Source: Maritimibacter sp.
GTDB taxonomy: Bacteria; Pseudomonadota; Alphaproteobacteria; Rhodobacterales; Rhodobacteraceae
Direction of reading: 5' to 3'
DNA: 64,000 nt
NCBI GenBank assembly: GCA_002695005.1
Contig: NZNT01000019.1
Span: 1 to 64,000 of the forward strand
This document shows positions 5,250 to 21,314 of this stretch, one piece after another. A program made the translations under genes and the position numbers. The notes below the pieces were generated by a model. That model made no database searches. It had not been told where the DNA came from and saw nothing but the letters and a program-made list of their open reading frames with translations. The stretch's first letter is position 1. Each line of letters begins with the position of its first letter.

Positions 5250-5355
5250 ACACGGGCCAAGGCGGTGACAGTCTGGAGCTCAAGTGGCGCTTTCGGTTCA
5301 CTCGGGAGGCCAACAGTTTATTTTCGTCGAACACCTGAACTTTGGAGGTTTCGCT

Positions 5356-6462
5356 ATGGCGACCACGGGCAAGCAACTGTTTACGACACTGGAAGCGGAC
5401 GGAACCCTGACCGTTGCGCTCGAGGGCGTGACCCATCCGGATCCGACCGGCAACCAGGTGTTGGTGAAAATGGAAGCTGCACCGATCAATCCGTCGGACC
5501 TTGCCATTCTGGTCGGTGCGGCCGACGTGAAAAACGCGAGCTATTCGCCCGGGAAATTCGTGGCGTCTGTGCCTGAGCCGTTCAATACGGGGTCCAAGGC
5601 ACGGCACGGGCTCAAGCTGCCTGCCGGGAACGAAGGGGCCGGCACCGTTGTCGCCGCCGGTGACGGTGCCAAAAAACTGGTGGGACAGCGGGTGTCCTGC
5701 GTTCCGGGCAATGCCTACAGCCAGTACTGTATCGCCGATGCTGCCATGTGCCTGCCCCTCGGCGATCACTCGGCCGAGGATGGCGCGAGCGCCTTCGTCA
5801 ATCCCATGACGGCTTTGGGGTTTGCCGAGAATGCCAAAAGGGACGGGCAAGATGCGATCTTGCACACCGTCGGGGCATCCAACCTTGGCCAGATGCTGAC
5901 GCGCATCTGCAACGAAGACGGCTTGGGCCTGGTCAATATCGTGCGCAAGGACAGTCAGGCAGACTTGCTTGCCGGGCTTGGGTCCACGCATATCGTCAAC
6001 TCTTCGCATGAGGATTTCATGGCCCGGCTGAGCGCCGCGATCGCGGACACCGGCGCCTTTTACGGCTTCGATCCGATTGGTGGCGGCAAGATGGTCGACA
6101 ATGCCTTCAAGGCGATGGAGCAGGTCGCCGTGAGCCAGATGACGGAATATTCGCGCTACGGCTCGAACCAGCCGAAACGCATGTTCATTTATGGACGTCT
6201 TGATACCGGTCTGACGACGTTGTCACCGAGCTACGGCTTTGGCTGGACACTCTCGGGTTGGCTGCTGTTTCCCTTTCTCCAATCAGCCGGAGGAGACGCC
6301 GTCAGCCGCATGCGCAAACGTGTGCTCGAGGGCCTCACGACCACCTTTGCGAGTCAGTACAAGAAGCGGGTCAATCTCGAAGAGATGCTGACCAAAGAGG
6401 CTATCACGGATTACCGCGCGATGAAGACGGGGGAGAAGTATCTCGTGACGCCTTGGTCGTGA
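5356..6462 (+). CDS. MDR-family NAD(P)H:quinone oxidoreductase / zinc-independent alcohol dehydrogenase
   Basis: 368 residues from the ATG at 5356, 7 bases after GGAGGT (5344-5349); the upstream in-frame extension from 5284 lacks this support. The N-terminal GroES-like half shows VLVKMEAAPINPSDLAIL and GNEGAGTVVAAGDGAKKLVG, the usual MDR pattern, without the catalytic zinc Cys-His set. The cofactor half has AILHTVGASNLGQMLTRI, where the normal AxGxxG nucleotide loop reads VGASNLG. Likely a cytosolic NADPH-dependent reductase of quinones or enones; the substrate cannot be told. It is followed by a perfect inverted repeat that may end transcription. Confidence 0.75.
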   Translation: MATTGKQLFTTLEADGTLTVALEGVTHPDPTGNQVLVKMEAAPINPSDLAILVGAADVKNASYSPGKFVASVPEPFNTGSKARHGLKLPAGNEGAGTVVAAGDGAKKLVGQRVSCVPGNAYSQYCIADAAMCLPLGDHSAEDGASAFVNPMTALGFAENAKRDGQDAILHTVGASNLGQMLTRICNEDGLGLVNIVRKDSQADLLAGLGSTHIVNSSHEDFMARLSAAIADTGAFYGFDPIGGGKMVDNAFKAMEQVAVSQMTEYSRYGSNQPKRMFIYGRLDTGLTTLSPSYGFGWTLSGWLLFPFLQSAGGDAVSRMRKRVLEGLTTTFASQYKKRVNLEEMLTKEAITDYRAMKTGEKYLVTPWS

Positions 6463-6868: not shown

Positions 6869-8509
6869 ATGCTGGGGCCGAGTGGTCATGTCGATACGTT
6901 CTGCAGGGACAACCTCCCGGCAGCCGCCAACTGGCCGGACCTGATCAACCTCCCGACCTACCCCGACCATGTGAATGCGGGCGTGGAATTGTCCAACGCC
7001 CTTGTTGCCGCCGGTCACGGAGACCGGATCGCGCTGCGCGGCGCGGAGGACGTCTACACCTATGGCGAACTCGCGGTCTGGTCGGACCGGATCGCGCAAC
7101 GCCTCGTGGACGACCTGAGCCTCGTGTCCGGCAATCGGGTGATGGTTTTCGGTGCCAACACGCCCGCGCTCGTCGCCCACTGGCTGGGTGTATTCAAGGC
7201 CGGGGGCGTCGTCGTCGCAGCCATGCCGATGCTGCGCGCCGGAGAGCTTTGCGAGATCATCTCGAAAGCCGCTGTGTCCCATGTCGTCTGCGATGCGCGC
7301 CTTGTGGGCGAGATCGACGCCGCGGTCGCAATGTCCGGCCGGCGGATTTCCGTTCTCTCCTTCGACGCCAGGGGGCGGGAAGGGGGGACCGGCGAGGCCG
7401 ATAGGGAGCCCCCTCGGCCCGCCGTAGCAGCGCCCACGGGGCGCGATGACGTGGCCTTGATCGCGTTCACCTCCGGGTCGACGGGCAATCCCAAGGCGGC
7501 GATGCATTTTCATCGGGACATTCTGTCCATGGCGGACGGGTATGCACGCGACGTGCTCGCGATGTCTGCGGATGATATCTGCATCGGGACACCACCTGTC
7601 GCCTTCGCATACGGTTTCTGTGGGCTCGTCGCTTATCCGCTCCGCAACGCGGCCTGCGCGGTATTGCGCGACGATCTCTCCGTGGACGCCTTGCCACAGG
7701 CGATCGCGCACCACCGCGCCACCGTTCTTTTCTCCGGTCCAACCGCCTATCGCAAGATGCTCGCGACGGGTCTGTCCGGGGCAAACCAGTCCTCCCTGCG
7801 CGTTGCGGTGTCGGCCGGTGAGACGCTGACGGCGCAGACACAGGATGCCTGGACCGACGCCGTGAGGGTGCCGATCCTCGATGCCATCGGTTCGACCGAG
7901 ATGCTGTCGTTCTTCCTCACCAACCGCATCGGGGACAGCATCGCCGGAACCACCGGCCGCCCGGTCGAGGGCTACGAGGTTCGGATCGTGGACGAGGCCA
8001 TGCGAACGCTTCCCCGAAACACGCGCGGACGCTTGGCCGTTCGGGGCCTTACCGGCTGCCGCTACCTCGCGGATGGGCGGCAGGAGGAAACCGTGCGGGA
8101 TGGCTGGACCTTGACTGGCGACATCTTCCTCGAGGACGATGACGGGCGCTTCCACTGTTTCGGCCGGGCGGACGACATCATCCTGTCCGCGGGCTACAAC
8201 ATCGCCGGGGCCGAGGTCGAAGCGGCGTTGGCCAGCCACGCCGCCGTGCAGGAATGCGCGGTCATCGGCGTTCCGGACGACGAACGCGGTCAGATTGTGG
8301 AGGCTGTCGTCGTTCTGAACGCGGGGTGGCATGCTGATGACGCAACGGCCGAAAGCCTGCAGGCGCATACGAAGGAAGAGATCGCGCCCTACAAGTATCC
8401 ACGCTCGATCCGCTTCGCCGATGTTCTGCCCAAGACGCCTTCGGGCAAGATCCAGCGCTTCCGTCTGCGCCCTAGCGAAGATGCAGCATCGGCCTCCGGA
8501 GCTGCGTGA
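6869..8509 (+). CDS. Aryl/acyl-CoA ligase (2-aminobenzoate / benzoate-CoA ligase type)
   Basis: 546 residues from an ATG 5 bases after AAGGGGG (6857-6863). An ANL-superfamily adenylate-forming enzyme that would activate a carboxylic acid with ATP to an acyl-adenylate and then the CoA thioester. Motifs seen: P-loop FTSGSTGNPKA (near residue 200), GSTEMLSFF core, GDIFLEDDDGRFHCFGRADD hinge with its Asp/Arg, and the C-terminal catalytic lysine in PKTPSGKIQR. The N-terminus MLGPSGHVDTF ... LPAAANWPDL resembles 2-aminobenzoate-CoA ligases and the benzoate-CoA ligase clade. Its place beside the megasynthase suggests it supplies a starter or a tailoring acyl group. Its 3' end overlaps the convergent GNAT gene by 38 bases. 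Confidence 0.8.
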   Translation: MLGPSGHVDTFCRDNLPAAANWPDLINLPTYPDHVNAGVELSNALVAAGHGDRIALRGAEDVYTYGELAVWSDRIAQRLVDDLSLVSGNRVMVFGANTPALVAHWLGVFKAGGVVVAAMPMLRAGELCEIISKAAVSHVVCDARLVGEIDAAVAMSGRRISVLSFDARGREGGTGEADREPPRPAVAAPTGRDDVALIAFTSGSTGNPKAAMHFHRDILSMADGYARDVLAMSADDICIGTPPVAFAYGFCGLVAYPLRNAACAVLRDDLSVDALPQAIAHHRATVLFSGPTAYRKMLATGLSGANQSSLRVAVSAGETLTAQTQDAWTDAVRVPILDAIGSTEMLSFFLTNRIGDSIAGTTGRPVEGYEVRIVDEAMRTLPRNTRGRLAVRGLTGCRYLADGRQEETVRDGWTLTGDIFLEDDDGRFHCFGRADDIILSAGYNIAGAEVEAALASHAAVQECAVIGVPDDERGQIVEAVVVLNAGWHADDATAESLQAHTKEEIAPYKYPRSIRFADVLPKTPSGKIQRFRLRPSEDAASASGAA

Positions 8510-9527
8510 CGTCCAGATCCGGTGCGACGAAGGCGAAGAGGAGGCGGTAAGGCGCGGGCATCGGGAGGAACCCGGCGCGCAAGCGCGAAGCCGTGCTCAT
8601 GCCGGCGGATGTGGGACAGACGACGAGCGCGTGGCCGGCCTTCTTCATGCTTTGCAGCGTCGCATCGAGGAGCTGCCGTTCAACGTGCCTGTCACCGCCC
8701 TGCGCCACGAGGTGATCGACCTGTCCGGCTGTGAACCGTTCGCGCCCGCGAAACCGGATACGATGGAAATTGGTCAGCCCCCTGATCTTGCCGTCGTCGT
8801 AGACGAGCGTGGTCGGAATCCCCTCGTGATCGAGTTGGAGTGCCAGCCTCTCGGGTGTCCAGTCAAAGCAGAAATCGGACCCGGCTTCCTTCGCCAGGAT
8901 AAGCTCCAGGCAGGCATCGAGGTCGCGCGGCTCGAAGGGGCGCAGGTTGCCGGTGGCCCGCGCCGGAACCCGGTCCAGCCGCGCCAGACCGGCCACACGC
9001 GCCGCCGCACGTTCGTAACGCGCAGCGGACACCCGTGTCAGGCGCCGTGCATCCAGCGGCCTGATCCACGGTCGAATCCCGTCCGCACGTTCCCCTTTCT
9101 GACTGCCGAGCCAGAATTTCGGTCCCAGACTGCCGGGCGTCGGCACTTCGAACCCCACGTCGAACGCGTAGCCCTCCTGCTGGACGCGGCGAAACAGTTC
9201 CGACGCGATGGTCTTGGCCACCCCCTGGCCCTTGCGGGCAGGGTCCGCGGACAGGAAGGACGAAAAGACCCCCTGAACCACGCGGTCCCCGCAGCGAAAC
9301 CCAAGGGCTTCTCCGAAAATGAACCCGACCAGTTCGCCGCCGTCATAGGCCGCGAGGAGCATGTTGTCGGGATTGCCGAAGACCGCCCAGGCGAAATACT
9401 CCGCATCCCATTGGGGACAGGTGACGTCTTGCGGAAACTGGCCGTCCCAGCACTTGCTGACGAAGGCCGCGAGTTCGGCGGGGGAGCCGCGATACTCGAC
9501 GACCTCGAAACCGGAATTGCTGGCCAT
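8472..9527 (-). CDS. Two-domain GNAT N-acyltransferase
   Basis: About 351 residues if started at the ATG at 9527 (MASNSGFEVVEYRGSP); an in-frame upstream start at 9638 would add 37 unconvincing residues. The first half shows a GNAT core with the acetyl-CoA loop motif SADPARKGQGVAKTI (the R/Q-xx-G-x-A loop) after a beta-strand VQGVFSSF. The second half begins LRPFEPRDLDACLELI and repeats a GNAT-like pattern, ending in a SAGMSTASRLRAGFLPM motif. Such proteins transfer acetyl or longer acyl groups from CoA to amines. It diverges from the megasynthase gene across 313 bases, so N-acylation of a polyketide amine is an attractive but unproven role. Confidence 0.7.
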   Translation of the reverse strand: MASNSGFEVVEYRGSPAELAAFVSKCWDGQFPQDVTCPQWDAEYFAWAVFGNPDNMLLAAYDGGELVGFIFGEALGFRCGDRVVQGVFSSFLSADPARKGQGVAKTIASELFRRVQQEGYAFDVGFEVPTPGSLGPKFWLGSQKGERADGIRPWIRPLDARRLTRVSAARYERAAARVAGLARLDRVPARATGNLRPFEPRDLDACLELILAKEAGSDFCFDWTPERLALQLDHEGIPTTLVYDDGKIRGLTNFHRIRFRGRERFTAGQVDHLVAQGGDRHVERQLLDATLQSMKKAGHALVVCPTSAGMSTASRLRAGFLPMPAPYRLLFAFVAPDLDVTQLRRPMLHLR

Positions 9528-9840
9528 GTCGGGTCGTTCGCTTTGTGACAGTGGGTTCGGATCGGTATCCGGGTAGAAGACCACCGATGGCCCGTGAGCG
9601 CAACACGCGGGCCGCTGGATGAAACCCGAGCCGTTCACACTGCACCAGGGCGGGATGCCGTGAGCGTAATCCGTATTTCGATGGTCCTGAGGAGGCTATT
9701 TCCTGCACCGCCGCTGGTCGCGCGCGCCGGGACGCCGATGGTGATCGTTGATCGGCGCAGCCTTTTGTAACAAGGTTACGGGGCGGAATGTCGCTTTTTA
9801 TCAGGCCGTATCCAAGGTCACGGAAAGGGAGTTGCCCGGT
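9528..9840. promoter_or_regulatory. Divergent intergenic region of GNAT and megasynthase genes
   Basis: 313 bases separating the divergent GNAT and megasynthase genes, so both promoters should lie here. I see no convincing sigma-70 pair. AAGGGAG at 9825-9831 is the probable ribosome site of the megasynthase. Confidence 0.4.
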
Positions 9841-12800
9841 TTGAACGGAATGGCATTAGACAACGATGTTGCGATCGTGGGTATTGCCTGCCGTTTGCCT
9901 CAGGCCAACAACCCGGATGAAGCTTGGGCTTTGATGACCGAAGGCCGCCACGCGATCACCAAGGCCCCGAAAGAGCGTTGGGCGACAAAGATGCGCGTCG
10001 CCCAGCAAAAGGGCCCGCGCACGCAACCGATCCCGGAATATGGCGGATACCTCGACGACATCGCGGGTTTCGACGCCCGCTTTTTTGGGACCACCGCCCG
10101 GGAAGCGCGCCTGATGGACCCGCAACAGCGCCTGCTGCTCGAGGGCGCGTGGGAGGCGATCGAGGCTGCAGGGATAGACCCTGCCGCGATGAAGGGCAGC
10201 CGCACGGGCGTGTTCGTCGGGATCTCCACGTCGGACTACCTTCAGCGGCAGATCCTCGATTCCGACCTGATCACGGTGGACGCCTATTCCGGCCTCGGTA
10301 TCGCGCAATCTATCGCCGCCAACCGGATCAGCTATTTCTTCGATTTCAAGGGGCCGTCTGCCGCGAGCGATACGGCCTGTTCCTCGGGACTGGTCGCGCT
10401 GCACCTCGCGCGCCGGAGCCTTGCCAACGGGGAATGCGACTATGCCATCGTGGGCGCTGTAAACGTGATCGTCTCACCGCTTTCCACGATCTCGTTCTCC
10501 AAGGCGCGGATGCTTTCGCCCGACGGTCGGTGCAAAACGTTCGACAAGTCGGCCGATGGTTACGTGAGGTCCGAAGGCTGCGCCACCCTGCTGCTCACGC
10601 GCGAGGATCTCGCGCTGCGCAAGGGGCACCGGATCGAGGCGCTGGTCCGGGGGTCGGCGATCAATCAGGACGGCAGGACGCTGTCGATCACGACGCCCAG
10701 CGAAGCGGCGCAGGCGCAGGTTTTGCGGGATGCTCTGGCCGATGCGCGCCTCGCGCCCGGCGACCTCGACCTGATCGAGGCGCATGGGACCGGCACGGCG
10801 GTGGGCGACGGGATCGAGATCGGCGCGCTGCGTGAGGTGTTCGGAAAAACGCCGCGCGAGCACCCGCTGATCCTCGGCGCGGCCAAGCCGCATTTCGGGC
10901 ATCTCGAAGCGGCCTCCGGTCTTGTCGGCGCGATCAAGGCCGTGCGGGAGTTGCAGACCGGGCTGGTTCCGTCCTTGCCCTTCCTCGCGGATCCGATCGA
11001 CCCGGATGCGGAGGGACGCATCGTCATCGCAGACCACGAGATGCGGTTGCGCGACACGCCGCGGGCATTGAGGGCCGGGCTTTCGTCCTTCGGGTTCGGT
11101 GGCACCAACGCCCACATCATCCTCGAAGCGCCGACCGAGCCGGTTCACAGCCGGGCCGGCAAACGACCGCCGCCGCCCGCGCAGCGTGTCCTGCCGGTCG
11201 CGGGACATACCGCGTCCACTCTGCGCGCCACGGCCGCGGACTACGCCGCGATGATCGAGGCGGATCCCGAGTTCGACCTCGACGCCCTGTGCCGAAGCGC
11301 CGACGAGGTCCGGGCGCGGCACCCGTTCCGGCGCGCAATTGTCTTTGGCGACCGCAATGAGGCCGTGCAGCGTCTGCGGGCAGTAGCGGGGGAAACTCCG
11401 CGCGCGGGTGACGCGTCCGCGCCGAAACCGGGCAAGCTCGCGCTGTGCTTTTCGGGGCAGGGCGCGCAATCGCCGGGGATGTGCCGCCGCCTGATGAAGC
11501 AGGACCCTGTCTTTGGCGATGTGATGGCGCGGCTGGATATGATGGCGCGGGACGAAGGGTTCCCGGGCCTGATCGACACGATCCTTGACGAAAGCGCCGG
11601 GGCCGGTGCGCGTTTGAGCGACACGGCGACGGCGCAACCAGCGCTCTTCGCCGTCGGCCTGGCTTTGGCGCGAAGCTGGATGGCACGCGGCGTGGTGCCG
11701 GATTACGTCCTCGGGCACAGTCTGGGCGAGATCACGGCCGCCTGCCTCGCCGGTGTGATGGACGAGCGCGCGGCCATGCGCCTCGTCATCCTGCGCGGAC
11801 GTCTTATGGCCGACGCGCCCGGCGACGGCGAGATGGCGGTGCTCTCCGGCACTGCGGACGCCGTCGATGCCTTCGTCGCCGAACTGCCGGCGGGGCTCGA
11901 GATTTCCGGACGCAACACGGCGCGCAGCATCACGGTATCCGGCACGCGTGACGCCGTAGCGCTGGGCATCCGGCGCGCCGAAGCGGCGGGATTGAAGGTC
12001 ACGCCGTTGTCGGTATCGCACGCTTTCCATTCGTCACTGATGGACCCGGTCCTGAACCGCTTTGCCGACGCCCTGAAGGGCGTCGCGTTCTCCCCGCCGC
12101 GCATCCCTGTGATCTCGAACGTGGCCGGCACACTCGTGGGGCCGGACACGCCAATGGATGCCGCCTACTGGGTGCGTCATCTGCGCTCTGCGGTGGAGTT
12201 CGGTGCCGCGGTCGAAACCCTGCTGGAGTGTGGCGTGGGAACCATCGCCGAAGTCGGACCGCGCCCGATGCTCCTGCCGTGGTTGCGCCAGTTGACGGGC
12301 GACCGGGAAACGGTGGGCCTCGTGCGCGCAATCGCGGGGGGACAGGATGATATGGCCGGACTGCTCGGCGGTCTGGGCGAGCTCTGGTCGCGGGGACACA
12401 CGGTCGATTGGTCGAAAGACCGCCGGGCCGATGCGGGTCAGGTCCGACTGCCGCCGTTCCGGTTCGCGCGCGAACCTTTCTGGTTCAAGACGGCCGCCCC
12501 CGAACCCGACGAGCGGCCCCGGGAAACCGTCAGCTCCGGCGCTGCGCTGGTCACCCGCCAGATCGACGAAGGCGGACTGGCAGATGTCCTTGACCAACAC
12601 AGGGTCGGCGGACGCGCGGTGGTGCCGGGGGCGCTCTACCTAGACATGATGACCGACGCCGCCCTCAAGCTGATCGGACCCGGCCGGTCGTTCCAGCTTG
12701 TGGACTGCCGCCTGCCGCAAGCCCTCGCGCTCTCCGAGGTGCGCGGACATGCCTTGTCCGTGCGGGCCGAAACGCGAGGTGAGGAGGGCTGGTCCCTCGT

Positions 12801-15800
12801 CGCGGTGGCGCCCGGTCGTGACGGAGCCGACGAAAAACTTCTGGCCCATGCGCTCGTGCGTCCCTGTGACGCGACACCATCGGCGCGCCTTTTCGCGCAT
12901 CTGCCGCCCGGCAAGGCGGCGGTTGCCGGTCCCGATCTTTACACCGCGCTTGAAGATCACGGGTTGACGTATGGCCCGGCGTTTCAGGGTATCCGGTCGG
13001 TCGAAAGCGGCAACGGGCAGGCTGAGGCGCGCTTCGAGGCTACGGGTGGCGCGGCACCAGGCGCGGCAATGCTCGATCCCGCCCGGTTCGACGCGGTGTT
13101 CCACCCGATCGCACTGGCGCTCAGGACGGTCGACGCGGAGGCCGCCGCCGGGCTCTGGATCCCGACGGGCTTCGAGAGCCTGACCGTTCATGCGTCGATG
13201 CCGGGGGAAGCCGTCGTGCAAGCGGCCCTGGTGGATGGCCCGCACATGCCCGACCTAAAAAGCTTCGACCTTTCCGTGCGCACGCCCGAGGACGTAGAGG
13301 CCATCTCGGTCAAAGGATTGCGCATCCGCCGCATCGACGGACGCGCGGGCGCAGCGTTGCCGACGGGTCCGCTGTTTGCGACCTCGTGGGCGCCGCTGGA
13401 AACGTCGCATGACACGAGCGGCGTCTGGGTTGTCGAAGAATTCGGCGGTAGCGGTGATCTTGCCGAGAGCCTGAGGGTCGAAACCGGGTCGCCCCGCGGC
13501 CCGCTGGTCCTCGCGATTGATTGCAGTGAAGTTGCTCAGGGACAGGATGCGATTACGGCCCTCGCCATGCGCCTCCGTCATCTCGCGACCCGCGAGGCGG
13601 ACAGGCCGGAGCGCGTGCTCGCCGTTTATCTCGAAGATCCGGATCGCACCAATCCGGCGGCGGAGGCGATGCGGGCGGCGATCCGGGTCTTTCGCAACGA
13701 GGTGCCGGCACTCTCAGCAGCGAACCTGACGCTCCCGCGTGACCTCCCCGAAGAGCGAAGGCGGGAGGTTCTGGCTCAAGCGCTTGCCAATGGCACCGAG
13801 AGCGACCTGTGCTGGCGCAACGGCACGCTCGCGGGGCTTCGGCTGGAGCCGACCGTGCCGGGTGGGCAGACCTGGTCGCCGCCAGCTCACGGGCGGGAGG
13901 TGCGCGTGCTGGTCCCGGGCGCGCGGGCCGGACCTCGCGGTCTGAGCTTCGACCCGCGCCCGGCCATCGAACCGGGGCCGACCGATGTGCAGATCACCCC
14001 GCGCGCGGCCGGTCTGAATTTCCGCGATGTCCTCAAGACCAAGCGGCTTTATCCCAACCGTCCCGGCCTGCCGCTCTGGCTTGGGGACGAATGTGCCGGG
14101 ATCGTGCGGGCTGTCGGCAAGGATGTCAGGGGTGTCGCGCCGGGGGATGCGGTGGTCGCGGTCGCGCCGCGTGCCTTCGCGTCCGAGGTCGTGGCACCCG
14201 CGACTGCGGTTGTGCGCAAGCCGCAAGCGCTTTCGTTCGACGAGGCTGCGACCTTGCCCATCGCCTTCTCGACCGCGTGGTATGCTCTGATGGACCTCGC
14301 CCGGATCGAGCCCGGACAATCCGTCCTCGTGCACGCGGGCGCGGGCGGGGTCGGACTGGCCGCGTTGCAGATCGCCCGAAGCCGGGGCGCACGCCTCTTC
14401 GCGACCGCGGGAAGTGAGGAGAAACGCGCCTACCTCGCCCGGTTGGGCGTGGAGGCTGTCGGTTCCTCGCGGGATACGAGCTTTGTCGACACGATCCGCG
14501 AGGCCACCGGGGGCGAAGGGATCGACGTTGTTCTGAGTTCGCTGCCCGGCCGAGAGATGATCGAGGCGAGCCTCGACCTCCTGCGCCCCTTCGGATGCTA
14601 TGTGGACATCGGGAAACGTGACATCGTCGAGAACACCGAGATCGGGATGCGCGTTCTGCACAAGTCGCTGAGCCTGCACACGGTCGATATGGAGTTGCTC
14701 TTCGCAAGCGCGCCCGAGAAAGCCGGGCGCATCCTGCGCGATGTGATGGCGGCGGTCGAAACGGGTGACTTGGCCCCCCTGCCTTTCGAACGCTTCGAAA
14801 TGTCGGACCCTGGTGCGGCGTTTCAGAAGATGGCTGGCGCGGGTAATATCGGAAAGATCGTTCTGGGCCTGCCCGAAGATATGGACACGGCGCCGGTCAC
14901 GCGCACCGACATCTCAGTCGGGGCAGCGCTCGTGACCGGGGCGTTCGGGGGGATCGGCCTTGACCTCGTGGACGCACTGGCCGCGGCCGGTGTTCGCGCC
15001 TTCGTGCTTGTGGGCCGGTCCGCCCCCGCCGGCGCAACTCTGGCGCGGGTCGTTGCATGGCGCGCGTCCGGTCTGGACGTGATGACGGCGCAGGTGGATG
15101 TATCGCAGTGGGGCCCGGTCGCGGCCGTGTTCGACGAGGCGAAGGCAGCAGGGTTCGACATCCGCCATGTGTTCCACGCAGCGGGCGTTCTGGCCGACAG
15201 GCTCATTTCGGACGTGGAGCCCAAGGATATTGCCGCGGCATGGGGCGTGAAGGTGGACGGGGCCCTCAACCTAGATGCGGCGAGTCAGGGCCGCGAGATC
15301 GACACGTTCGTCTGCCTCTCATCTATCTCGACCCTCCTGGGCTCACCGGGGCAGATGGCATACGCCGCCGCGAATGCTGGGATGGAGGCGATCTGTGCCC
15401 GGCGCCGTGCGGCGGGGCTCGCGGGTCAGGCAATTGTCCTCGGGCCGTGGCAGGCCGGACTTGGCGTGAGCAATGCAGGCACGACAGACCGATTGGAGCG
15501 GTTGGGGCTGCGCAGTTTCAGCCGGGTCGACGGGATCAATGTGCTGAAGAAAGCCCTCACGGCCAACGCGACCGCCCCGGTTGCAGCGCGGTTCACGTTA
15601 GGATGGCAGGGCACACCCGTTCCGCCGGTCGCGCAACTGTCGATCTGTGCCGACTTGTTCCCGAAAGGGGCGGGCCGGGCGGGTCTATCCGCCCATGGGC
15701 GTGCGGGCATCCTTGCCGATCTGGCGAAGGCTGCGGTGCCGGAGCGTCCCGGGCTTCTGGCTGCATACCTGCGCGATCGCCTCGCGAATGTTACAGGGCA

Positions 15801-18669
15801 GGGGGCAGACACCATGCCGCTGGACGCCCCACTACAGGCGCTAGGTTTCGACAGTCTTTCCGGGTTGGAATTCGGGATGCTGGTGGAAGAGGAGATCGGC
15901 GCCGGCGTCCCGCTGGACCGCATCGACGACGCCACGTCGATTTCCGATCTCGCCGCGCTGTTGCTCTCGCGGCTCGATCTGGATGCACAGACCCTGATCG
16001 AAGCGCCCGCGCCGCCTCCGGCACAAGAAGACCCGAAGCCCGCGTTGCCGGCCCCGGGCGCGATCCCCCCCCAAGCGGAGGCGACGGCGGAGGATTACAT
16101 CAAGAACGTCAGGCCGGACTTCACACGGAACCTTCCGGTCCTGAAACTCGACGCGGATTACGACCGGGCGGCGGGCATGACGCTCTCAGGGATGCTCGAC
16201 GGCACGCGGCGTGATGTGCTCGACTTCGTAGGCGGATACGGAAGCGGCCTGTTCGGACACAACCACCCGGATATCGTGGCGGCCGTCACCCAGACGCTGA
16301 CCACCGGCCGTCCGATGCAGGTGCAAGGCGCGGCGCGACCCCTCGCAGGCCGGCTCGCTGAGGACCTCGCGGCGGCCCTGCGCGACGAGACCGGCTTGGA
16401 CTACGTCACCACGTTCGCCAATACTGGCGCCGAAGCGGTCGAGGCGGCGCTGAAACATGCGCTGATGGACTACGCCGACCGAATGGAGCGGGCGGGCGTC
16501 GACCTTTCGATCCTGTCGGACGAGGCGGCGTCGGACTACGCGCCCGCGATCATGACCGTCGAAGGATCCTACCACGGTAAGACCTTGTCGGCGCTGTCCA
16601 TCGGGCATTTCCGCGGATGGCCCAAGGGGCGGGCGGGGTTCCGCGTCATTTCGGTGCCGCGCGACGACCCGGACGCCATCACGCGCGCCATCGCTGCCGA
16701 AACCATCAGGGTCGGAGACCGCGACATCTCCCGCATCGCAGGGGCCTTTGCCGAACCGGTTCAGGGAGAAGGCGGCATCCATCCGCTGCCCGAGGACGTG
16801 TTGCGCGCGCTGAGGGACGGGGCGGATGCCGGGGGCTTTCCGCTCGTCTTCGACGAAATCCAGTGCGGTTTCTATCGCTGCGGCGCCCTCTCGGCGGCAA
16901 GCCGGAAGGGCGTGGTCGCGGACTATTACACCTTCGGCAAGAGCCTTGGCGGCGGCGTTGCCAAGATCAGCGCGTTTCTGGTTCGGCGCGACCGATACCG
17001 CGACGGCTTCGGCGCGCTGCAAAGCTCCACATTCGCCGAGGATGATTTTTCTTCCCGCGCAGCCCTCGCTGCGTTGGCGGTCGCTCGCCGCGACCGGGTG
17101 GGCGACCTTGCTATAGAACGCGGCAATGCGCTGACCGCGCGTCTGGGGCAGCTGGCGTCGACCTACCCTGACATTGTGCGGGAGGTGCGCGGCGAGGGGC
17201 TCATGGTCGGGCTCGAACTGGCGGATCTGTCCGGCAGTCCGACCGGGCTGATCGCCGATGCGGTCACGCATGAGTTTCTCGGCCAGATCGTGACCTCACA
17301 TCTTCTGTTGCGGTCGGGCGTGCGCGTTGCCACGACGCTGTCGGCCCCGAATACCTTCCGCCTTCAGCCGTCGGCGTATGTCACCGAGGCGGAAATCGCG
17401 CGGCTCGTGAGTGCGTTGGAGCGTGTCTTCGTCGCCCTGCGCATGGGAGACGGGGCGTTCCTCGTTTCCCATCTCCTCGAGCGGGCGGACTGGCTCGACG
17501 CGCCGCGGGATTATCCCGACGTGGCGCCTGACCGGAAATATGGCACGGGCGAGGGTGCGGCGGATACGCGGGTGGCGTTCGCCGTACACATCACCGACAG
17601 CGATGCGATCGCGCGCTGGGACGCGTCGTGGGAGCGGCTCCCGCCGGACGCCCGTGAGGCGCTGGTCGCCCGTTTCGCCCCTGTGGTCGAACCCATGCCG
17701 CTCCGGGTCGAGCAGGTGACATCCGCCAACGGCGCCAAGGTCGACATCCATTTTTGGTCCGTCTTCGCCACGGCGAAAACGATCGAAGCGGCCATGCGGC
17801 AGGGGGACACCGACTGGCTCACCCGGAAAGTCGCCGCTATCGCGCAGCAAGCCTCCGAGGCTGGCTGCAACGTGCTCGGCCTTGGCGGGTTCCTGTCCAT
17901 CGCGACGCGGAACGGGCTGCGGGTCCAGACCCCGCGCATCGGGATCACCACGGGCAACGCCCTGACCATCGCGGCGGGTTTGGCCGGGGTGGAGGCCCAG
18001 ATCGTTCGCGTGCTCGGGGGCGCGAAGCCACGGATCGCGGTCGTTGGCGCGGCGGGCAACATCGGGCGAACATGGGCGCGCGCGCTGGCGCAACGGTTCG
18101 GCGGGCTCACGCTGGTCGGTCGCCCGGGGACGCAGGGACGGTTGAAGGCCCTTGCGGACGACATTCGTATGGACAGCCGCGAGCACGGGGCCGAGGCGCC
18201 CGATCTGACGCTTGCGGACACCCTCGACGCCTTGTCGGATTGCAATGTGATCGTCGCGGCGACCAATGCCAGCGCGCCCATCGTGTTCGCCCACCACCTC
18301 GGCCCCGATCCGACCCTCTTGTTCGACCTGTCCGTTCCCGGCGCCGTGGACCCGGCTATCGCAGAGGGCAGGAACGATGTCGCCCTGCTGTCAGGCGGCG
18401 TCACCGGTTTGCCAGAGGGCAACGAAACGGACCTGGCGTATTTCGGATTGCCCAAACGCCATGTCTTCGCCTGCATGGCCGAGACGGCGATCCTCGGGCT
18501 TGATGGGCGGTCTGCGGATTTCAGCATCGGCGACGTCGATCTCAGCCAGGTCAACGAGATCAGCGCGCTGGCGACCAGCCACGGATTCGACATCACGAAC
18601 GTGAGCGAAGTCTCGAACGCGTCCGCCCATGGCGAGGGCGACGTGCCCAGGGTCCAGGCCGCGACCTAG
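9841..18669 (+). CDS. Reducing type I polyketide synthase with aminotransferase and acyl-ACP-reductase-like domains
   Basis: About 2942 residues from TTG 9841 (9 bases after AAGGGAG); ATG 9850 and TTG 9748 are alternatives. Residue numbers use 9841. Domains: KS (8-430; DTACSS Cys180, EAHGTGT His315, FGHLEAASG His354); AT (535-840; GHSLGE Ser627; HAFHS, the malonyl-CoA signature); DH (890-1175; HRVGGRAVVP, His920; DAVFH); a KR-like structural linker without methyltransferase; ER (1365-1675; HAGAGGVGLAALQ); KR (1693-1905; TGAFGGIG, Ser1828, Tyr1841); ACP (1965-2045; GFDSL, Ser2005). A class III PLP aminotransferase follows (2085-2545; FDEIQCG Asp2338, TFGKSLGGG Lys2367). The C-terminus (2580-2920) resembles cyanobacterial acyl-ACP reductase: LGLGGFLSIAT, ITTGNALT, VVGAAGNIG, and VFACMAETAILGLDG with Cys2878. 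All key residues are present, so it looks functional: one fully reducing module whose product could leave as an aldehyde and be aminated. Confidence 0.9.
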   Translation: MNGMALDNDVAIVGIACRLPQANNPDEAWALMTEGRHAITKAPKERWATKMRVAQQKGPRTQPIPEYGGYLDDIAGFDARFFGTTAREARLMDPQQRLLLEGAWEAIEAAGIDPAAMKGSRTGVFVGISTSDYLQRQILDSDLITVDAYSGLGIAQSIAANRISYFFDFKGPSAASDTACSSGLVALHLARRSLANGECDYAIVGAVNVIVSPLSTISFSKARMLSPDGRCKTFDKSADGYVRSEGCATLLLTREDLALRKGHRIEALVRGSAINQDGRTLSITTPSEAAQAQVLRDALADARLAPGDLDLIEAHGTGTAVGDGIEIGALREVFGKTPREHPLILGAAKPHFGHLEAASGLVGAIKAVRELQTGLVPSLPFLADPIDPDAEGRIVIADHEMRLRDTPRALRAGLSSFGFGGTNAHIILEAPTEPVHSRAGKRPPPPAQRVLPVAGHTASTLRATAADYAAMIEADPEFDLDALCRSADEVRARHPFRRAIVFGDRNEAVQRLRAVAGETPRAGDASAPKPGKLALCFSGQGAQSPGMCRRLMKQDPVFGDVMARLDMMARDEGFPGLIDTILDESAGAGARLSDTATAQPALFAVGLALARSWMARGVVPDYVLGHSLGEITAACLAGVMDERAAMRLVILRGRLMADAPGDGEMAVLSGTADAVDAFVAELPAGLEISGRNTARSITVSGTRDAVALGIRRAEAAGLKVTPLSVSHAFHSSLMDPVLNRFADALKGVAFSPPRIPVISNVAGTLVGPDTPMDAAYWVRHLRSAVEFGAAVETLLECGVGTIAEVGPRPMLLPWLRQLTGDRETVGLVRAIAGGQDDMAGLLGGLGELWSRGHTVDWSKDRRADAGQVRLPPFRFAREPFWFKTAAPEPDERPRETVSSGAALVTRQIDEGGLADVLDQHRVGGRAVVPGALYLDMMTDAALKLIGPGRSFQLVDCRLPQALALSEVRGHALSVRAETRGEEGWSLVAVAPGRDGADEKLLAHALVRPCDATPSARLFAHLPPGKAAVAGPDLYTALEDHGLTYGPAFQGIRSVESGNGQAEARFEATGGAAPGAAMLDPARFDAVFHPIALALRTVDAEAAAGLWIPTGFESLTVHASMPGEAVVQAALVDGPHMPDLKSFDLSVRTPEDVEAISVKGLRIRRIDGRAGAALPTGPLFATSWAPLETSHDTSGVWVVEEFGGSGDLAESLRVETGSPRGPLVLAIDCSEVAQGQDAITALAMRLRHLATREADRPERVLAVYLEDPDRTNPAAEAMRAAIRVFRNEVPALSAANLTLPRDLPEERRREVLAQALANGTESDLCWRNGTLAGLRLEPTVPGGQTWSPPAHGREVRVLVPGARAGPRGLSFDPRPAIEPGPTDVQITPRAAGLNFRDVLKTKRLYPNRPGLPLWLGDECAGIVRAVGKDVRGVAPGDAVVAVAPRAFASEVVAPATAVVRKPQALSFDEAATLPIAFSTAWYALMDLARIEPGQSVLVHAGAGGVGLAALQIARSRGARLFATAGSEEKRAYLARLGVEAVGSSRDTSFVDTIREATGGEGIDVVLSSLPGREMIEASLDLLRPFGCYVDIGKRDIVENTEIGMRVLHKSLSLHTVDMELLFASAPEKAGRILRDVMAAVETGDLAPLPFERFEMSDPGAAFQKMAGAGNIGKIVLGLPEDMDTAPVTRTDISVGAALVTGAFGGIGLDLVDALAAAGVRAFVLVGRSAPAGATLARVVAWRASGLDVMTAQVDVSQWGPVAAVFDEAKAAGFDIRHVFHAAGVLADRLISDVEPKDIAAAWGVKVDGALNLDAASQGREIDTFVCLSSISTLLGSPGQMAYAAANAGMEAICARRRAAGLAGQAIVLGPWQAGLGVSNAGTTDRLERLGLRSFSRVDGINVLKKALTANATAPVAARFTLGWQGTPVPPVAQLSICADLFPKGAGRAGLSAHGRAGILADLAKAAVPERPGLLAAYLRDRLANVTGQGADTMPLDAPLQALGFDSLSGLEFGMLVEEEIGAGVPLDRIDDATSISDLAALLLSRLDLDAQTLIEAPAPPPAQEDPKPALPAPGAIPPQAEATAEDYIKNVRPDFTRNLPVLKLDADYDRAAGMTLSGMLDGTRRDVLDFVGGYGSGLFGHNHPDIVAAVTQTLTTGRPMQVQGAARPLAGRLAEDLAAALRDETGLDYVTTFANTGAEAVEAALKHALMDYADRMERAGVDLSILSDEAASDYAPAIMTVEGSYHGKTLSALSIGHFRGWPKGRAGFRVISVPRDDPDAITRAIAAETIRVGDRDISRIAGAFAEPVQGEGGIHPLPEDVLRALRDGADAGGFPLVFDEIQCGFYRCGALSAASRKGVVADYYTFGKSLGGGVAKISAFLVRRDRYRDGFGALQSSTFAEDDFSSRAALAALAVARRDRVGDLAIERGNALTARLGQLASTYPDIVREVRGEGLMVGLELADLSGSPTGLIADAVTHEFLGQIVTSHLLLRSGVRVATTLSAPNTFRLQPSAYVTEAEIARLVSALERVFVALRMGDGAFLVSHLLERADWLDAPRDYPDVAPDRKYGTGEGAADTRVAFAVHITDSDAIARWDASWERLPPDAREALVARFAPVVEPMPLRVEQVTSANGAKVDIHFWSVFATAKTIEAAMRQGDTDWLTRKVAAIAQQASEAGCNVLGLGGFLSIATRNGLRVQTPRIGITTGNALTIAAGLAGVEAQIVRVLGGAKPRIAVVGAAGNIGRTWARALAQRFGGLTLVGRPGTQGRLKALADDIRMDSREHGAEAPDLTLADTLDALSDCNVIVAATNASAPIVFAHHLGPDPTLLFDLSVPGAVDPAIAEGRNDVALLSGGVTGLPEGNETDLAYFGLPKRHVFACMAETAILGLDGRSADFSIGDVDLSQVNEISALATSHGFDITNVSEVSNASAHGEGDVPRVQAAT

Positions 18670-19154
18670 CGCGTGAAGGTAATGTCCGACATCGAGACCG
18701 AGCGATCGGCCCGGTCGACGGACCGCATCCGGAACCCGTTGCCGACCAGACGCAACTCGACGTTCTGGTCGAGCTGACGCCCCGTGGCGGGGTCCTTGGC
18801 CGAATAGGTGAACGCGACGAAATCCTCGCCGGAATGGCCCGCGATCCGCACCTCTCCCAGACCGTCGGGGTTCGACCAGCGACCGGAAATCGCGGCGCTG
18901 TCATCGCGCGCCCGGATGGTGCCGGAGAGATCGAGCCGCCGCCCGGCTGTCACGCACATACCGCTCATGGTCAGTTCCAGCCGCTCGGGCGCATAGCTGT
19001 TGGTGATCCGGCAACGGACCGCATCCAGCTCCGCCTCGGGCACTTCGCGCGCGGTGCCGCTTCCCGTCCAGTCACCTGCCAGCAACGGCAGAGGGTCGGC
19101 TGTCGCCGCGATGGCTGGCAGGACGAACATCAGCGCGGTGAGCAGTCGGTACAT
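18666..19154 (-). CDS. Small secreted beta-rich protein
   Basis: 162 residues with a signal peptide (MYRLLTALMFVLPAIAATA). The mature part has LLAGDWTGSGTAR at its start, a motif typical of lipocalin-like or DUF1579-type beta-barrels, two Cys and alternating beta-strands. Its ATG directly follows the stop codon of the RND exporter gene upstream (19155), with GGAG as ribosome site inside that gene's end, so translation is probably coupled. The stop codons of this gene and of the convergent megasynthase overlap by four bases. A periplasmic carrier of a lipid product is possible but is inference from context. Confidence 0.6.
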   Translation of the reverse strand: MYRLLTALMFVLPAIAATADPLPLLAGDWTGSGTAREVPEAELDAVRCRITNSYAPERLELTMSGMCVTAGRRLDLSGTIRARDDSAAISGRWSNPDGLGEVRIAGHSGEDFVAFTYSAKDPATGRQLDQNVELRLVGNGFRMRSVDRADRSVSMSDITFTR

Positions 19155-21314
19155 TCACTCAGCTCCGTTTCTGCGAAGTGACAAGAGCGCGGGCAGGACG
19201 AGCAGGTCCGCGACGAGCGCCGCCCACAGGATCGCCACGATCAACCCGCCGAACAGCCAGATCGGCAGGAAGCCACTTGTCAGCGTAACGGCGAGGCCTC
19301 CGGTCAACAAGAGCGTGGTAAGCACCATGGACTGCCCCGCGCTCGACGTTGCGAATTGAAGCGACCGTTCCGTGCCCGCGCCGCGTGCGCGCGACCTGTC
19401 GAAACGCCCGAGAAAATGAATCGTGTCGTCGATGGCGATCCCGAACGCGATGGTCAGGCCGAGGACCGCGGTCGGTGTCAGTTTGCCTCCCGCGATGATG
19501 TGGAGCGAGGCCCCCGCCAGCATCAGTGGCAGGACGTTCACGATCAGCAAGAGCGGGATGATGCGCAGCGACCGGAACGCGAAGGCGACGAACAGCGACG
19601 CGCCGAGCGATGCGATGACGAGGCTCCGTGTCAGTTCGGCGATGAGGCTGAGACCTTCTTCATGCATGAGTACCGGCGTCCCGAAGACCCGATCCGCGCC
19701 GCCCGCAACGGCGGCGTCATGGACCCGGCGGTAGCGCGACAAGGCCGCGTCGTCGCTCATCGGTTCCGCCAGCGAAATCAGTATGCGGTGGGTCTCCTCA
19801 TCGGGCCGCACCATGTTTACGAGAGCGGGCGGAAACGTGTCGAGGTCATCCGCCTGCGGCTCGCCACGCCCGAGGCCGCGCCACCTTGCCAATCCGGGCT
19901 CCGACAGCACGGCTTCGGGTCCGGCGACATCGACCAGCGTCTCCGCCAGTTCCACGGTGCGGCTCCAATCTCCGTCGACCTCCACGATCATCTGGAACAC
20001 GCCAGAGAAATCCCGCGCCACCGCCGCGTTCGCGGCCCGCACCTCGCTGCCGCGGGGCAGGTTGTCGTCGAGAACCACCCAGGGTGTCGTTTTAATAAAG
20101 CCGTAGCCCGCCAGCACCAACAGGGCGAGCGCCCCGACCACGACCAGTCGCGCGTGGGTCGTGCCAATCCCTGTGAGCCATCGGGCCAGCCCCGTCCCGG
20201 CCTGCGACGGCTTCACGGACCGCCCGCCAAGCACCAGTGCCATGAGGGAGAACGAGACCAGCGATATCGCGAAGGCAAGGAGAGTGCCCATCGCGCCGAG
20301 GATGGCGAATTCGCGCACCTGCGTGTTCTCGGTGATCATGATCGACGCGAAGGCCAGTGAGGTCGTGATTGCGGTCAGGGCTGAGGCCGGGCCAATCTCG
20401 CGCAGCGTTTCCTCGACCTTGCCCGAGCCGTGTCGCAGGTGACGGGCAAGGTGCAGGCAGTTGGCCCCGCCGAGGACGAGCAGCAGGATCGGGATGACGT
20501 TCGTCAGCATCGTGATTGGGTAGCCGAGCCAGACCGACAGGGCGAGCACACTGGCCGCTCCGCCAAACGCGGGGACGACGATCAGAACCGTCATGCGAAG
20601 ATCGCGCAGAAGGACCATCGCGGACAATGCGACGAGCAGGGCGCCGACAGCGTTAAGCCGGAATAGGTCGTTCGTGAGCCCCTCGACGACGGCGATGCTG
20701 ATGATGTCCTCGCCGGTCAGTTGCAGGGTCATACCTTCTGGCAAGGCGCCGACGATCGTCGACTCGATCCGGTCGCGCGCCTGTGGGACCGTCGTGGCAT
20801 CCGCATCGACCGATACGGTGACAAGGATCGCGCGGCCCTGATCCGCGATATAGGTCGGCAGGCCTGTCTCCAGCGCCCGGAATGCCGCCAGATCTTCGCG
20901 GTAATCGGACCCGATTGTCGCGCCGAACACCGGGCGGCCCGATGGCGCGTCCTCGCTCGGCGGCAGGCGAAGGATGAACGGCGATGCGACGGCCGTCACC
21001 CCGTCCGCGAACTCGAGGTCCAGCGCGATGTTGCGCAACCGCGACAGGTCGTCGGGAGAGAACGGCTCAGGAGAACTGATGTGCGCCAGGATCGTGCGTG
21101 TCGGGGCATCCGATCCAGTTTCCAAGTCGCGCTGCATTTGCGAAATCGGACTGTCGCTCAGGAAAACGCGGTTCATGTTCTGATCGAACTGAACGAACGG
21201 CAGACTCGCGAAGATGACCGCGAGGAAACCCACAAGGAGCGACGTCGCCAGCCGTGGCCGCGCGACCGCCGCAAGCGCCAGCTTTTCGATGCCGAAACTG
21301 ATGCTCTTCGCCAT
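19155..21314 (-). CDS. RND-superfamily (MMPL-type) exporter
   Basis: 719 residues. The layout is that of MMPL/SSD-type RND permeases: an N-terminal membrane segment (LATSLLVGFLAVIFASL), a large periplasmic loop, a block of five or six segments (VGALLVALSAMVLL ... ITMLTNVIPILLLVLGGANC), a second loop, and a matching C-terminal block. Two Asp-rich polar spots in the membrane blocks, including FGIAIDDTIHFLGRF, fit proton relay. Proteins of this kind export lipids, hopanoids or polyketide lipids. The coupled gene downstream encodes a secreted protein, and the convergent megasynthase gene is next to it, so export of the polyketide product is a reasonable guess. Confidence 0.8.
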   Translation of the reverse strand: MAKSISFGIEKLALAAVARPRLATSLLVGFLAVIFASLPFVQFDQNMNRVFLSDSPISQMQRDLETGSDAPTRTILAHISSPEPFSPDDLSRLRNIALDLEFADGVTAVASPFILRLPPSEDAPSGRPVFGATIGSDYREDLAAFRALETGLPTYIADQGRAILVTVSVDADATTVPQARDRIESTIVGALPEGMTLQLTGEDIISIAVVEGLTNDLFRLNAVGALLVALSAMVLLRDLRMTVLIVVPAFGGAASVLALSVWLGYPITMLTNVIPILLLVLGGANCLHLARHLRHGSGKVEETLREIGPASALTAITTSLAFASIMITENTQVREFAILGAMGTLLAFAISLVSFSLMALVLGGRSVKPSQAGTGLARWLTGIGTTHARLVVVGALALLVLAGYGFIKTTPWVVLDDNLPRGSEVRAANAAVARDFSGVFQMIVEVDGDWSRTVELAETLVDVAGPEAVLSEPGLARWRGLGRGEPQADDLDTFPPALVNMVRPDEETHRILISLAEPMSDDAALSRYRRVHDAAVAGGADRVFGTPVLMHEEGLSLIAELTRSLVIASLGASLFVAFAFRSLRIIPLLLIVNVLPLMLAGASLHIIAGGKLTPTAVLGLTIAFGIAIDDTIHFLGRFDRSRARGAGTERSLQFATSSAGQSMVLTTLLLTGGLAVTLTSGFLPIWLFGGLIVAILWAALVADLLVLPALLSLRRNGAE

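Follow-up and report, generated by a model that had tools for sequence, protein, structure and literature searches.

A type I polyketide synthase fused to a transaminase and an AAR-type reductase: a probable one-chain route from polyketide to primary amine

Background

Polyketide chains usually leave their synthases (PKSs) as acids or lactones or, by way of SDR-type reductases, as aldehydes. In systems like those for coelimycin and zeamine, the thioester reductase has an SDR-type fold and the activities reside on separate proteins. Both pathways are described as reductive release of the assembly-line chain followed by transamination (coelimycin, PMC9594044; zeamine, PMC3547906), and in the amine route a separate enzyme aminates the aldehyde (PMC6498172).

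Both activities are also described on one chain. TamH consists of a transaminase followed by a reductase of the type of cyanobacterial acyl-ACP reductase (AAR) and, together with the ligase-ACP protein TamA, converts a C12 acid through the aldehyde to the C12 amine in vitro with NADH; C12-CoA gave no detectable amine (PMC9594044). For KecF, a transaminase followed by an AAR-like domain, the proposed role is reduction and amination of a chain from a type II PKS, leading to a tetrahydropyridine; its authors set this against the established route, where the activities come from two genes and the reductase forms the end of a type I PKS (PMC6498172). In PigE, the thioester is reduced and then transaminated by domains standing in the reverse order (PMC8341465).

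Here we analyse a 64,000-nucleotide stretch of DNA from Maritimibacter sp. (the window), part of a 4.27-Mb genome in 30 contigs, in which one reading frame joins a transaminase-AAR (TA-AAR) pair to a PKS module (Table 1).

Results

A single frame from ketosynthase to reductase

The frame is free of stops from TTG 9841 (or ATG 9850) to 18669 on the plus strand and encodes 2942 amino acids, counted from TTG 9841. This start is reasonable because a ribosome-binding-like run, GGAAAGGGAG, ends 9 bases upstream of it; other candidates are the ATG at 9850 and the TTG at 9748, which is the longest open start. By Pfam, the domains succeed one another as ketoacyl-synt, Acyl_transf_1, PS-DH, ADH_N/ADH_zinc_N, KR, PP-binding and Aminotran_3, placing KS, AT, DH, ER, KR and ACP on a single chain, as in type I fully reducing PKSs. 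A first-pass annotation made from the sequence alone had read KS-AT-DH-ER-KR-ACP, then an aminotransferase and then an AAR-like domain in one frame, and the Pfam order and the stop-free frame bear it out. Its further statement that every catalytic residue is in place holds for the motifs examined: those in KS, AT, DH, ER, KR, ACP and TA align with a fused homologue from another genus of the same family (G111), 52% identical overall.

The AT carries HAFH, which under the known specificity rule is a malonyl-type motif, and the extender is therefore probably malonyl-CoA. The sole genome-wide match to PF01648 is a frame of 143 codons, the size of AcpS. As a one-module, fully reducing type I PKS, the protein would build an acyl chain on its own ACP.

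Table 1. Positions of the predicted features in the window and the evidence for each
Feature	Position	Strand	Evidence
Type I PKS with C-terminal transaminase and AAR-type reductase	9841..18669	+	Open frame; Pfam domain order; relatives L024 (in G111) and L069/L070 (in G1367)
KS	9862..11136	+	PF00109/PF02801; DTACSS, EAHGTGT, FGHLEAA; motifs kept in G111
AT	11431..12300	+	PF00698; GHSLGE, HAFH; motifs kept in G111
DH	12556..13365	+	PF14765/PF21089; H and D motifs kept in G111
ER	13936..14880	+	PF08240/PF00107
KR	14911..15540	+	PF08659
ACP	15751..15975	+	PF00550; GFDSL motif kept in G111
Class III PLP aminotransferase	16066..17445	+	PF00202 E=3e-54; Lys2367 at 16939-16941
AAR-type thioester reductase (predicted; borders taken from the folded region of the model)	17566..18588	+	TIGR04058, SeAAR, model, Foldseek; VVGAAGNIG; Cys2878 at 18472-18474
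Acyl/aryl-CoA ligase, benzoate-CoA-ligase-like	6869..8509	+	PF00501/PF13193; TIGR02262 below cut-off
Double-GNAT N-acyltransferase (predicted)	8472..9638	-	PF00583 1e-5; divergent from PKS
MMPL/HAE3-type exporter (predicted)	19155..21314	-	PF03176 3e-9; TIGR00921 3e-19, below cut-off; convergent with PKS

The release domain has a predicted AAR fold

Pfam finds only Shikimate_DH (4e-7) and a weak Semialdhyde_dh match (0.007) in the C-terminus. Among NCBIfam models, the isolated C-terminus matches PigE at E=1e-31, aligned to the N-terminal, reductase half of that protein, and the AAR model TIGR04058 at E=1e-15, with 57.8 bits against a cut-off of 449.7. The HMM search against AAR that the first-pass annotation had proposed thus gave a significant match, though below the curated cut-off. 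When the whole TA-AAR part is compared with the PigE model NF053554, it scores 297.4 bits against a cut-off of 850, the transaminase aligning to the second half of the profile and the C-terminal domain to the first. With both scores far below their cut-offs, substrate specificity cannot be transferred from either family.

A phmmer search of the PDB with the C-terminus returned PigE (4ppm, 3e-17) and the Synechococcus AAR, SeAAR (6jzq, 2e-8), and in the alignment Cys2878 stands in register with the AAR cysteine. The structure prediction, likewise proposed at first pass, gave an AAR fold. In a Foldseek search with the model of this domain (pLDDT 82.6, built from the window and seven loci), ranks 1-7 were all AAR chains, with E-values down to 1e-22 and target TM-scores of 0.75-0.80, the best being 6jzu (0.80); they were followed by the TAD of the carmabin pathway and then by glutamyl-tRNA reductase. 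The first-pass annotation would have been refuted by the lack of a significant AAR match and of an NADPH-binding fold, or by close homologues without the cysteine; instead, the AAR and Rossmann matches are both significant, and the cysteine is retained in the close homologue G111.

Residues 2367 and 2878 are lysine and cysteine, as had been claimed, and the four C-terminal motifs quoted with them are all present. An SDR-type terminal reductase was considered and rejected, as no NAD_binding_4 was found among the 19 Pfam families with matches at E<=0.1; together with the AAR match, this upholds the original call of AAR-type rather than SDR-type release. Judged by profile matches and the predicted fold, the C-terminal domain is an AAR-fold thioester reductase, which by score lies outside the curated AAR family.

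The transaminase probably acts on the released aldehyde

Aminotran_3 spans residues 2105-2529 (Pfam). The best PDB match of this domain is CrmG (5.6e-66), followed by putrescine aminotransferases (1e-37) and PigE (7e-33). A Foldseek search with a model of both domains (pLDDT 76) likewise placed CrmG first, and since all 50 of the matches listed were aminotransferases, it is uninformative about the AAR half. These relatives use aldehydes or small amines as substrates, in contrast to the beta-aminating domains considered next.

In-line PLP aminotransferase domains that aminate the growing chain have been described in MycA, and the zeamine pathway is proposed to use one as well (PMC3547906). The transaminase might likewise act in mid-assembly and place a beta-amino group on the ACP-bound chain, leaving the AAR domain merely to release an aldehyde. 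This appears very unlikely. The nearest relatives are CrmG, the putrescine aminotransferases and PigE, with no glutamate-1-semialdehyde-type model among the best 25 of 77 NCBIfam matches, and the transaminase is fused to an AAR domain as in TamH and KecF, an arrangement found also in proteins without a PKS.

We favour instead amination after release. The acyl group would pass from the ACP onto Cys2878 and be reduced with NAD(P)H to the aldehyde, and the class III transaminase, with PLP on Lys2367, would convert the aldehyde to a primary amine. A terminal amine had been predicted from the start, and the domains and the known chemistry of TamH support it. From sequence, model and this analogy, we infer that TamH-like chemistry runs here in cis, and we hold it quite probable that the release-and-amination core takes the PKS chain through the aldehyde to the primary amine on one polypeptide.

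The fusion is rare and forms one clade

AAR-domain matches were found in 5 of 394 genomes of the family, 8 of 390 of the order, 1 of 385 of the class and 7 of 398 of the phylum, in draws that overlap and each count the window's own genome. Frames of more than 2,000 codons with an AAR domain occurred in these draws only in that genome and in G111. By blastp, the G111 protein shows 49% identity over 2,969 columns; the figure from MAFFT is 52%. Identity is highest in KS (65%) and lowest in DH (44%). A third fused copy was identified within the window's genus, in G1367, with 61% identity over 2,623 columns. It is split over two contigs: the PKS fills the first and breaks off early in the AAR domain, before the cysteine, and the second contains the PKS start together with the GNAT and ligase genes. 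The PKS-TA-AAR fusion in cis is thus found in three genomes, all of one family. In the six other same-genus genomes searched, matches were listed only in the aminotransferase half, at no more than 34% identity.

Such rarity, with the fused PKS in 2 of the 8 genomes of the genus searched (the window's and seven more), might suggest a decaying or non-functional gene. We find this hardly credible, as frames of about 3,000 codons have stayed open, and their motifs intact, in two genera whose proteins are about 50% identical, and the third genome, G1367, contains a 2,614-codon stretch that is stop-free across its whole contig.

Seven further loci encode the TA-AAR pair unfused, in Planctomycetota (three), Deltaproteobacteria, Desulfobacterales, UBA6915 and Pseudomonas subflava. 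None of the seven showed a PKS domain match in the TA-AAR frame; they came from a contig scan that required exact matches to short peptides, including one with the Cys motif, which makes this weak evidence for absence of the fusion and biases the scan loci towards the cysteine. Among plasmid records, 41 had a match, mostly to the aminotransferase half only, and none of three examined was fused. G491 has a TA-AAR protein with a ligase joined directly to it, and this ligase falls into one broad family with the CoA ligase next to our PKS.

Both the lysine and the cysteine are kept in all 13 aligned TA-AAR rows. These comprise the window and G111, six loci of the contig scan and five solo proteins, of which three belong to the window's family and the others to Rhodovulum and Haematobacter; L021, a Photobacterium protein and the solo proteins added later lie outside this alignment. 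The window, G111 and the five solo proteins were retrieved without the Cys pattern, and cysteine conservation is therefore judged more fairly from G111 and the solo rows.

In a tree of 21 rows, the three fused forms make up one clade (100/100). Solo proteins from the window's family group separately, together with the Rhodovulum and Haematobacter ones. The nearest outside group to the fused clade is that of the Planctomycetota, at a weak 88/92, and four rows are long-branched and of uncertain placement. A single fused clade apart from the solo clade of its own family suggests that the fusion has one origin: it seems to have arisen once among the forms compared, from a lineage other than the family's own solo proteins.

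The solo proteins showed a further association. All six genomes carrying solo TA-AAR also encode XrtD, as against 43 of 197 in the background (Fisher P=1.6e-4, related genomes not being independent). XrtD lies on another contig than solo TA-AAR in G297 and G355 and about 83 kb away in G466, and two genomes with the longer TA-AAR-ligase form are without XrtD. In the reverse test, TA-AAR was found in none of 80 genomes, 40 with and 40 without XrtD; with no positive control among these genomes, the result carries little weight.

A predicted N-acyltransferase accompanies all three fused PKSs

Upstream of the PKS, on the opposite strand, lies a gene for a double-GNAT protein; GTG 9638 is its longest start, and homology begins further inside. 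Its homologues adjoin the PKS in all three fused loci, with 43% identity in G111 and 44% in G1367. Pfam places only GNAT families above cut-off. A profile built from five homologues matches human N-myristoyltransferase 2 (NMT) at 3.4e-7 over part of the chain, with weak matches to Eis (0.009) and YpeA (0.001). The overlapping plus-strand frame 8331-9548 was rejected as a neighbour gene: it has no family match, and the conserved gene is the GNAT on the opposite strand. PADLOC gave no match for the TA-AAR part or the GNAT, and a role as a defence system was set aside.

A search of 72,556 plasmid records with the GNAT gave two matches, both from Deinococcus, which cover 86-87% of its length at 28-29% identity. 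Both operons are annotated with type I PKS, thioester reductase, class III aminotransferase, GNAT, KAS III and ACP. A like order of steps accompanied by the same acyltransferase, there in separate genes, speaks for the amine as the substrate of the GNAT, whose conservation beside the PKS suggests that the pathway goes on beyond the free amine. In our reading, the NMT-like double GNAT would follow the transaminase and N-acylate the amine, a step to which we give about an even chance from sequence evidence. Its resemblance to NMT is only distant, so even a group as small as acetyl could be the one transferred.

The acyltransferase also bears on the fate of the amine. After the same release, the amine might cyclise onto a ketone left in the chain and give a cyclic imine or tetrahydropyridine alkaloid like koreenceine, and it is for such a cyclisation on a type II PKS chain that KecF, with the same TA-AAR pair, has been proposed (PMC6498172). 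Here it is an improbable outcome, as the complete DH-ER-KR set, conserved in the motifs examined, favours full reduction, and an N-acyltransferase next door has no obvious role for a cyclic imine.

A CoA ligase and an exporter leave two views of chain length

The gene preceding the GNAT encodes a CoA ligase whose score below the TIGR02262 cut-off leaves its substrate uncertain. In G1367, a ligase with 53% identity to it occupies the corresponding position next to the GNAT and PKS genes and points the same way; no homologue was found in the stretches examined around the G111 PKS. Pfam detects no loading domain in the PKS chain, and given this lack and the adjoining ligase gene kept in the same-genus genome G1367, the protein may not be the self-contained synthase it was first taken for. 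The long chain proposed at first pass is likewise a possibility, as sequence gives no measure of chain length. By sequence, the ligase could supply either the PKS starter or an acyl donor.

At the other end, an MMPL homologue lies directly 3' of the G111 PKS (26% identity, E=6e-25), on the plus strand there and on the minus strand in the window. From its family, the MMPL protein would export the product, which we judge about as likely to be right as wrong. N-acylation, export and the part of the ligase, like everything on chain length, are what we infer.

Two products of different length may be weighed. One is an arylalkyl or short-chain amine, made with the same release chemistry after the PKS has extended a ligase-supplied aryl or short acyl starter once or a few times. 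It would account for a PKS without a loading domain; the ligase resembles benzoate-CoA ligases and keeps its order and orientation in G1367, and the ligase fused to TA-AAR in G491 belongs to the same broad family. The ligase missing from the stretches around the G111 PKS, its sub-threshold score and an adjoining MMPL exporter, which suits a lipid better, speak against such an amine; we regard it as a sizeable possibility, though short of an even chance. The other is a bacterial double-chain lipid of a new class, for which the locus would be a compact factory: a long-chain amine made by the PKS would be N-acylated in NMT-like fashion to a ceramide-like amide and exported by the MMPL protein. 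Taken as a whole, we put this forward tentatively, as possible but unlikely. The likeliest product is a PKS-derived primary amine, possibly N-acylated and exported.

Discussion

If the proposed core is right, one polypeptide would perform every step from the acyl chain to the primary amine. This would open tests of aldehyde channelling between adjacent domains and make AAR-type release a candidate for a swappable module in PKS engineering, while the conserved acyltransferase and the exporter point to an uncharacterised product of amine or amide type. Across the proteins surveyed, the TA-AAR pair recurs with different loaders: a type II PKS in KecF, a ligase-ACP protein in TamA/TamH, a fused ligase in G491 and a type I PKS here.

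Among described systems, TamH (Pseudoalteromonas tunicata, tambjamine YP1) resembles our protein in its N-terminal class III transaminase, AAR-type reductase, GxxGxxG motif and catalytic cysteine. It differs in being a free-standing protein of 941 residues fed by TamA, whereas the window's pair shares its chain with a complete type I PKS module that includes an ACP. KecF (Pseudomonas koreensis, koreenceine) likewise has a transaminase followed by an AAR-like (COG5322) domain, proposed to act on a polyketide-ACP, but works in trans on a type II PKS. The window's protein therefore shares with the TamH/KecF type the TA-AAR order and the lysine and cysteine, and not the free-standing form acting in trans. 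PigE (prodigiosin, PDB 4ppm) also unites an AAR-type reductase and a class III transaminase on one chain, but in reverse order and without a PKS, and the window's protein stays below the NCBIfam PigE equivalog cut-off.

SeAAR (PDB 6jzq, 6jzu and 6jzy) agrees in fold, nucleotide motif and the column of the catalytic cysteine, but is a stand-alone enzyme providing fatty aldehyde for alkane synthesis and shows 22-26% identity to the window in the Foldseek matches. The carmabin-pathway TAD (PDB 9e4x, 9e50 and 9e4u), by the titles of its entries an NAD(H)-binding domain, has an AAR-like fold (Foldseek E down to 4e-15), but is only 14-16% identical. The coelimycin and zeamine systems, with an SDR-type fold and separate proteins, differ from the AAR fold and single chain of the window. 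The Deinococcus plasmid clusters (NZ_CP092189 and NZ_CP097152) share a PKS, a thioester reductase, a class III transaminase and a homologous double GNAT, and the PKS of NZ_CP092189 matches the window's KS, AT, DH, ER and KR; they differ in having separate genes, NRPS-type parts and a reductase annotated as a thioester reductase domain.

The TA-AAR pair is thus already known, from TamH and KecF and, reversed, from PigE. The first-pass remark that no described system has such a domain order stands for the whole chain and fails for its TA-AAR half. Searches of open-licence papers listed no type I PKS fused to TA-AAR, and what appears to be new is the fusion, in cis, of this pair to a type I fully reducing PKS.

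Genes accompanying the polyketide synthase

Two further genes accompany the polyketide synthase (PKS) of the window, and their coordinates are listed in the table below together with those of genes adjoining unfused TA-AAR genes (class III aminotransferase plus acyl-ACP-reductase-like domain, the predicted amine-releasing pair) in other loci. The small protein matches no Pfam family, and homologues of neither product were found within the examined stretches around the fused PKS of G111, a relative of another genus.

Genes near the window PKS and beside unfused TA-AAR genes
Feature	Locus	Positions	Strand
ADH-like MDR protein, upstream of ligase	window	5284-6462	+
Small protein with signal-like start, between PKS and MMPL genes	window	18666-19154	-
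PPDK_N/PEP-utilizer protein (phosphotransferase-like)	L018	1591-4140	
PPDK_N/PEP-utilizer protein (phosphotransferase-like)	L020	7374-9926	
Two consecutive PPDK_N/PEP-utilizer proteins (phosphotransferase-like)	L022	12950-18219	

The sole match to phosphopantetheinyl transferases (PF01648) in the genome of the window lies in a short, AcpS-sized frame (C20:118780-119055), which is unexpected in a genome carrying a type I PKS.

TA-AAR proteins in other contexts

TA-AAR is also joined to a loader in cis in another way: a frame of 1,403 amino acids in genome G491 (L073:8261-12469) unites it with a benzoate-CoA-ligase-like AMP-binding enzyme in one chain, and a frame of equal length is present in G569. 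Both genomes were searched for the VPLPA-CTERM exosortase XrtD, which is absent from them.

XrtD co-occurs with solo TA-AAR proteins (those without PKS; loci L025, L026, L047, L048, L071, L072) of the window's family, being found in all six genomes concerned (G159, G297, G355, G466, G502, G581) versus 43 of 197 others (Fisher P=1.6e-4, the related genomes not being independent). It lies within about 7 kb of the solo gene in G159, G502, G581 and a plasmid of Rhodovulum P5, and not within this distance in G297, G355 and G466. VPLPA-CTERM-like genes are present in L025, L047, L048 and L071. This system for sorting proteins might make use of a lipid amine.

Among the loci with phosphotransferase-like neighbours, L020 also contains a UbiA gene. 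In Pseudomonas subflava (L023:12963-15779), the TA-AAR gene is followed by one whose product bears the C-terminal domain of phosphatidylglycerol lysyltransferase, possibly a transferase onto amine or lipid, again adjoining an amine-forming enzyme.

Comparison with other assembly lines

An operon type on Deinococcus plasmids (L056, L057, L068) combines PKS, thioester reductase, class III aminotransferase and double GNAT with a radical SAM or coproporphyrinogen-III-oxidase-like gene, KAS III and ACP; a search of open-licence papers found none on it. In the carmabin pathway, the TAD domain (PDB 9e4x, 9e50, 9e4u) resembles AAR in fold, with Foldseek E values down to 4e-15; sequence searches may therefore understate how common AAR-fold domains are among the assembly lines for natural products.
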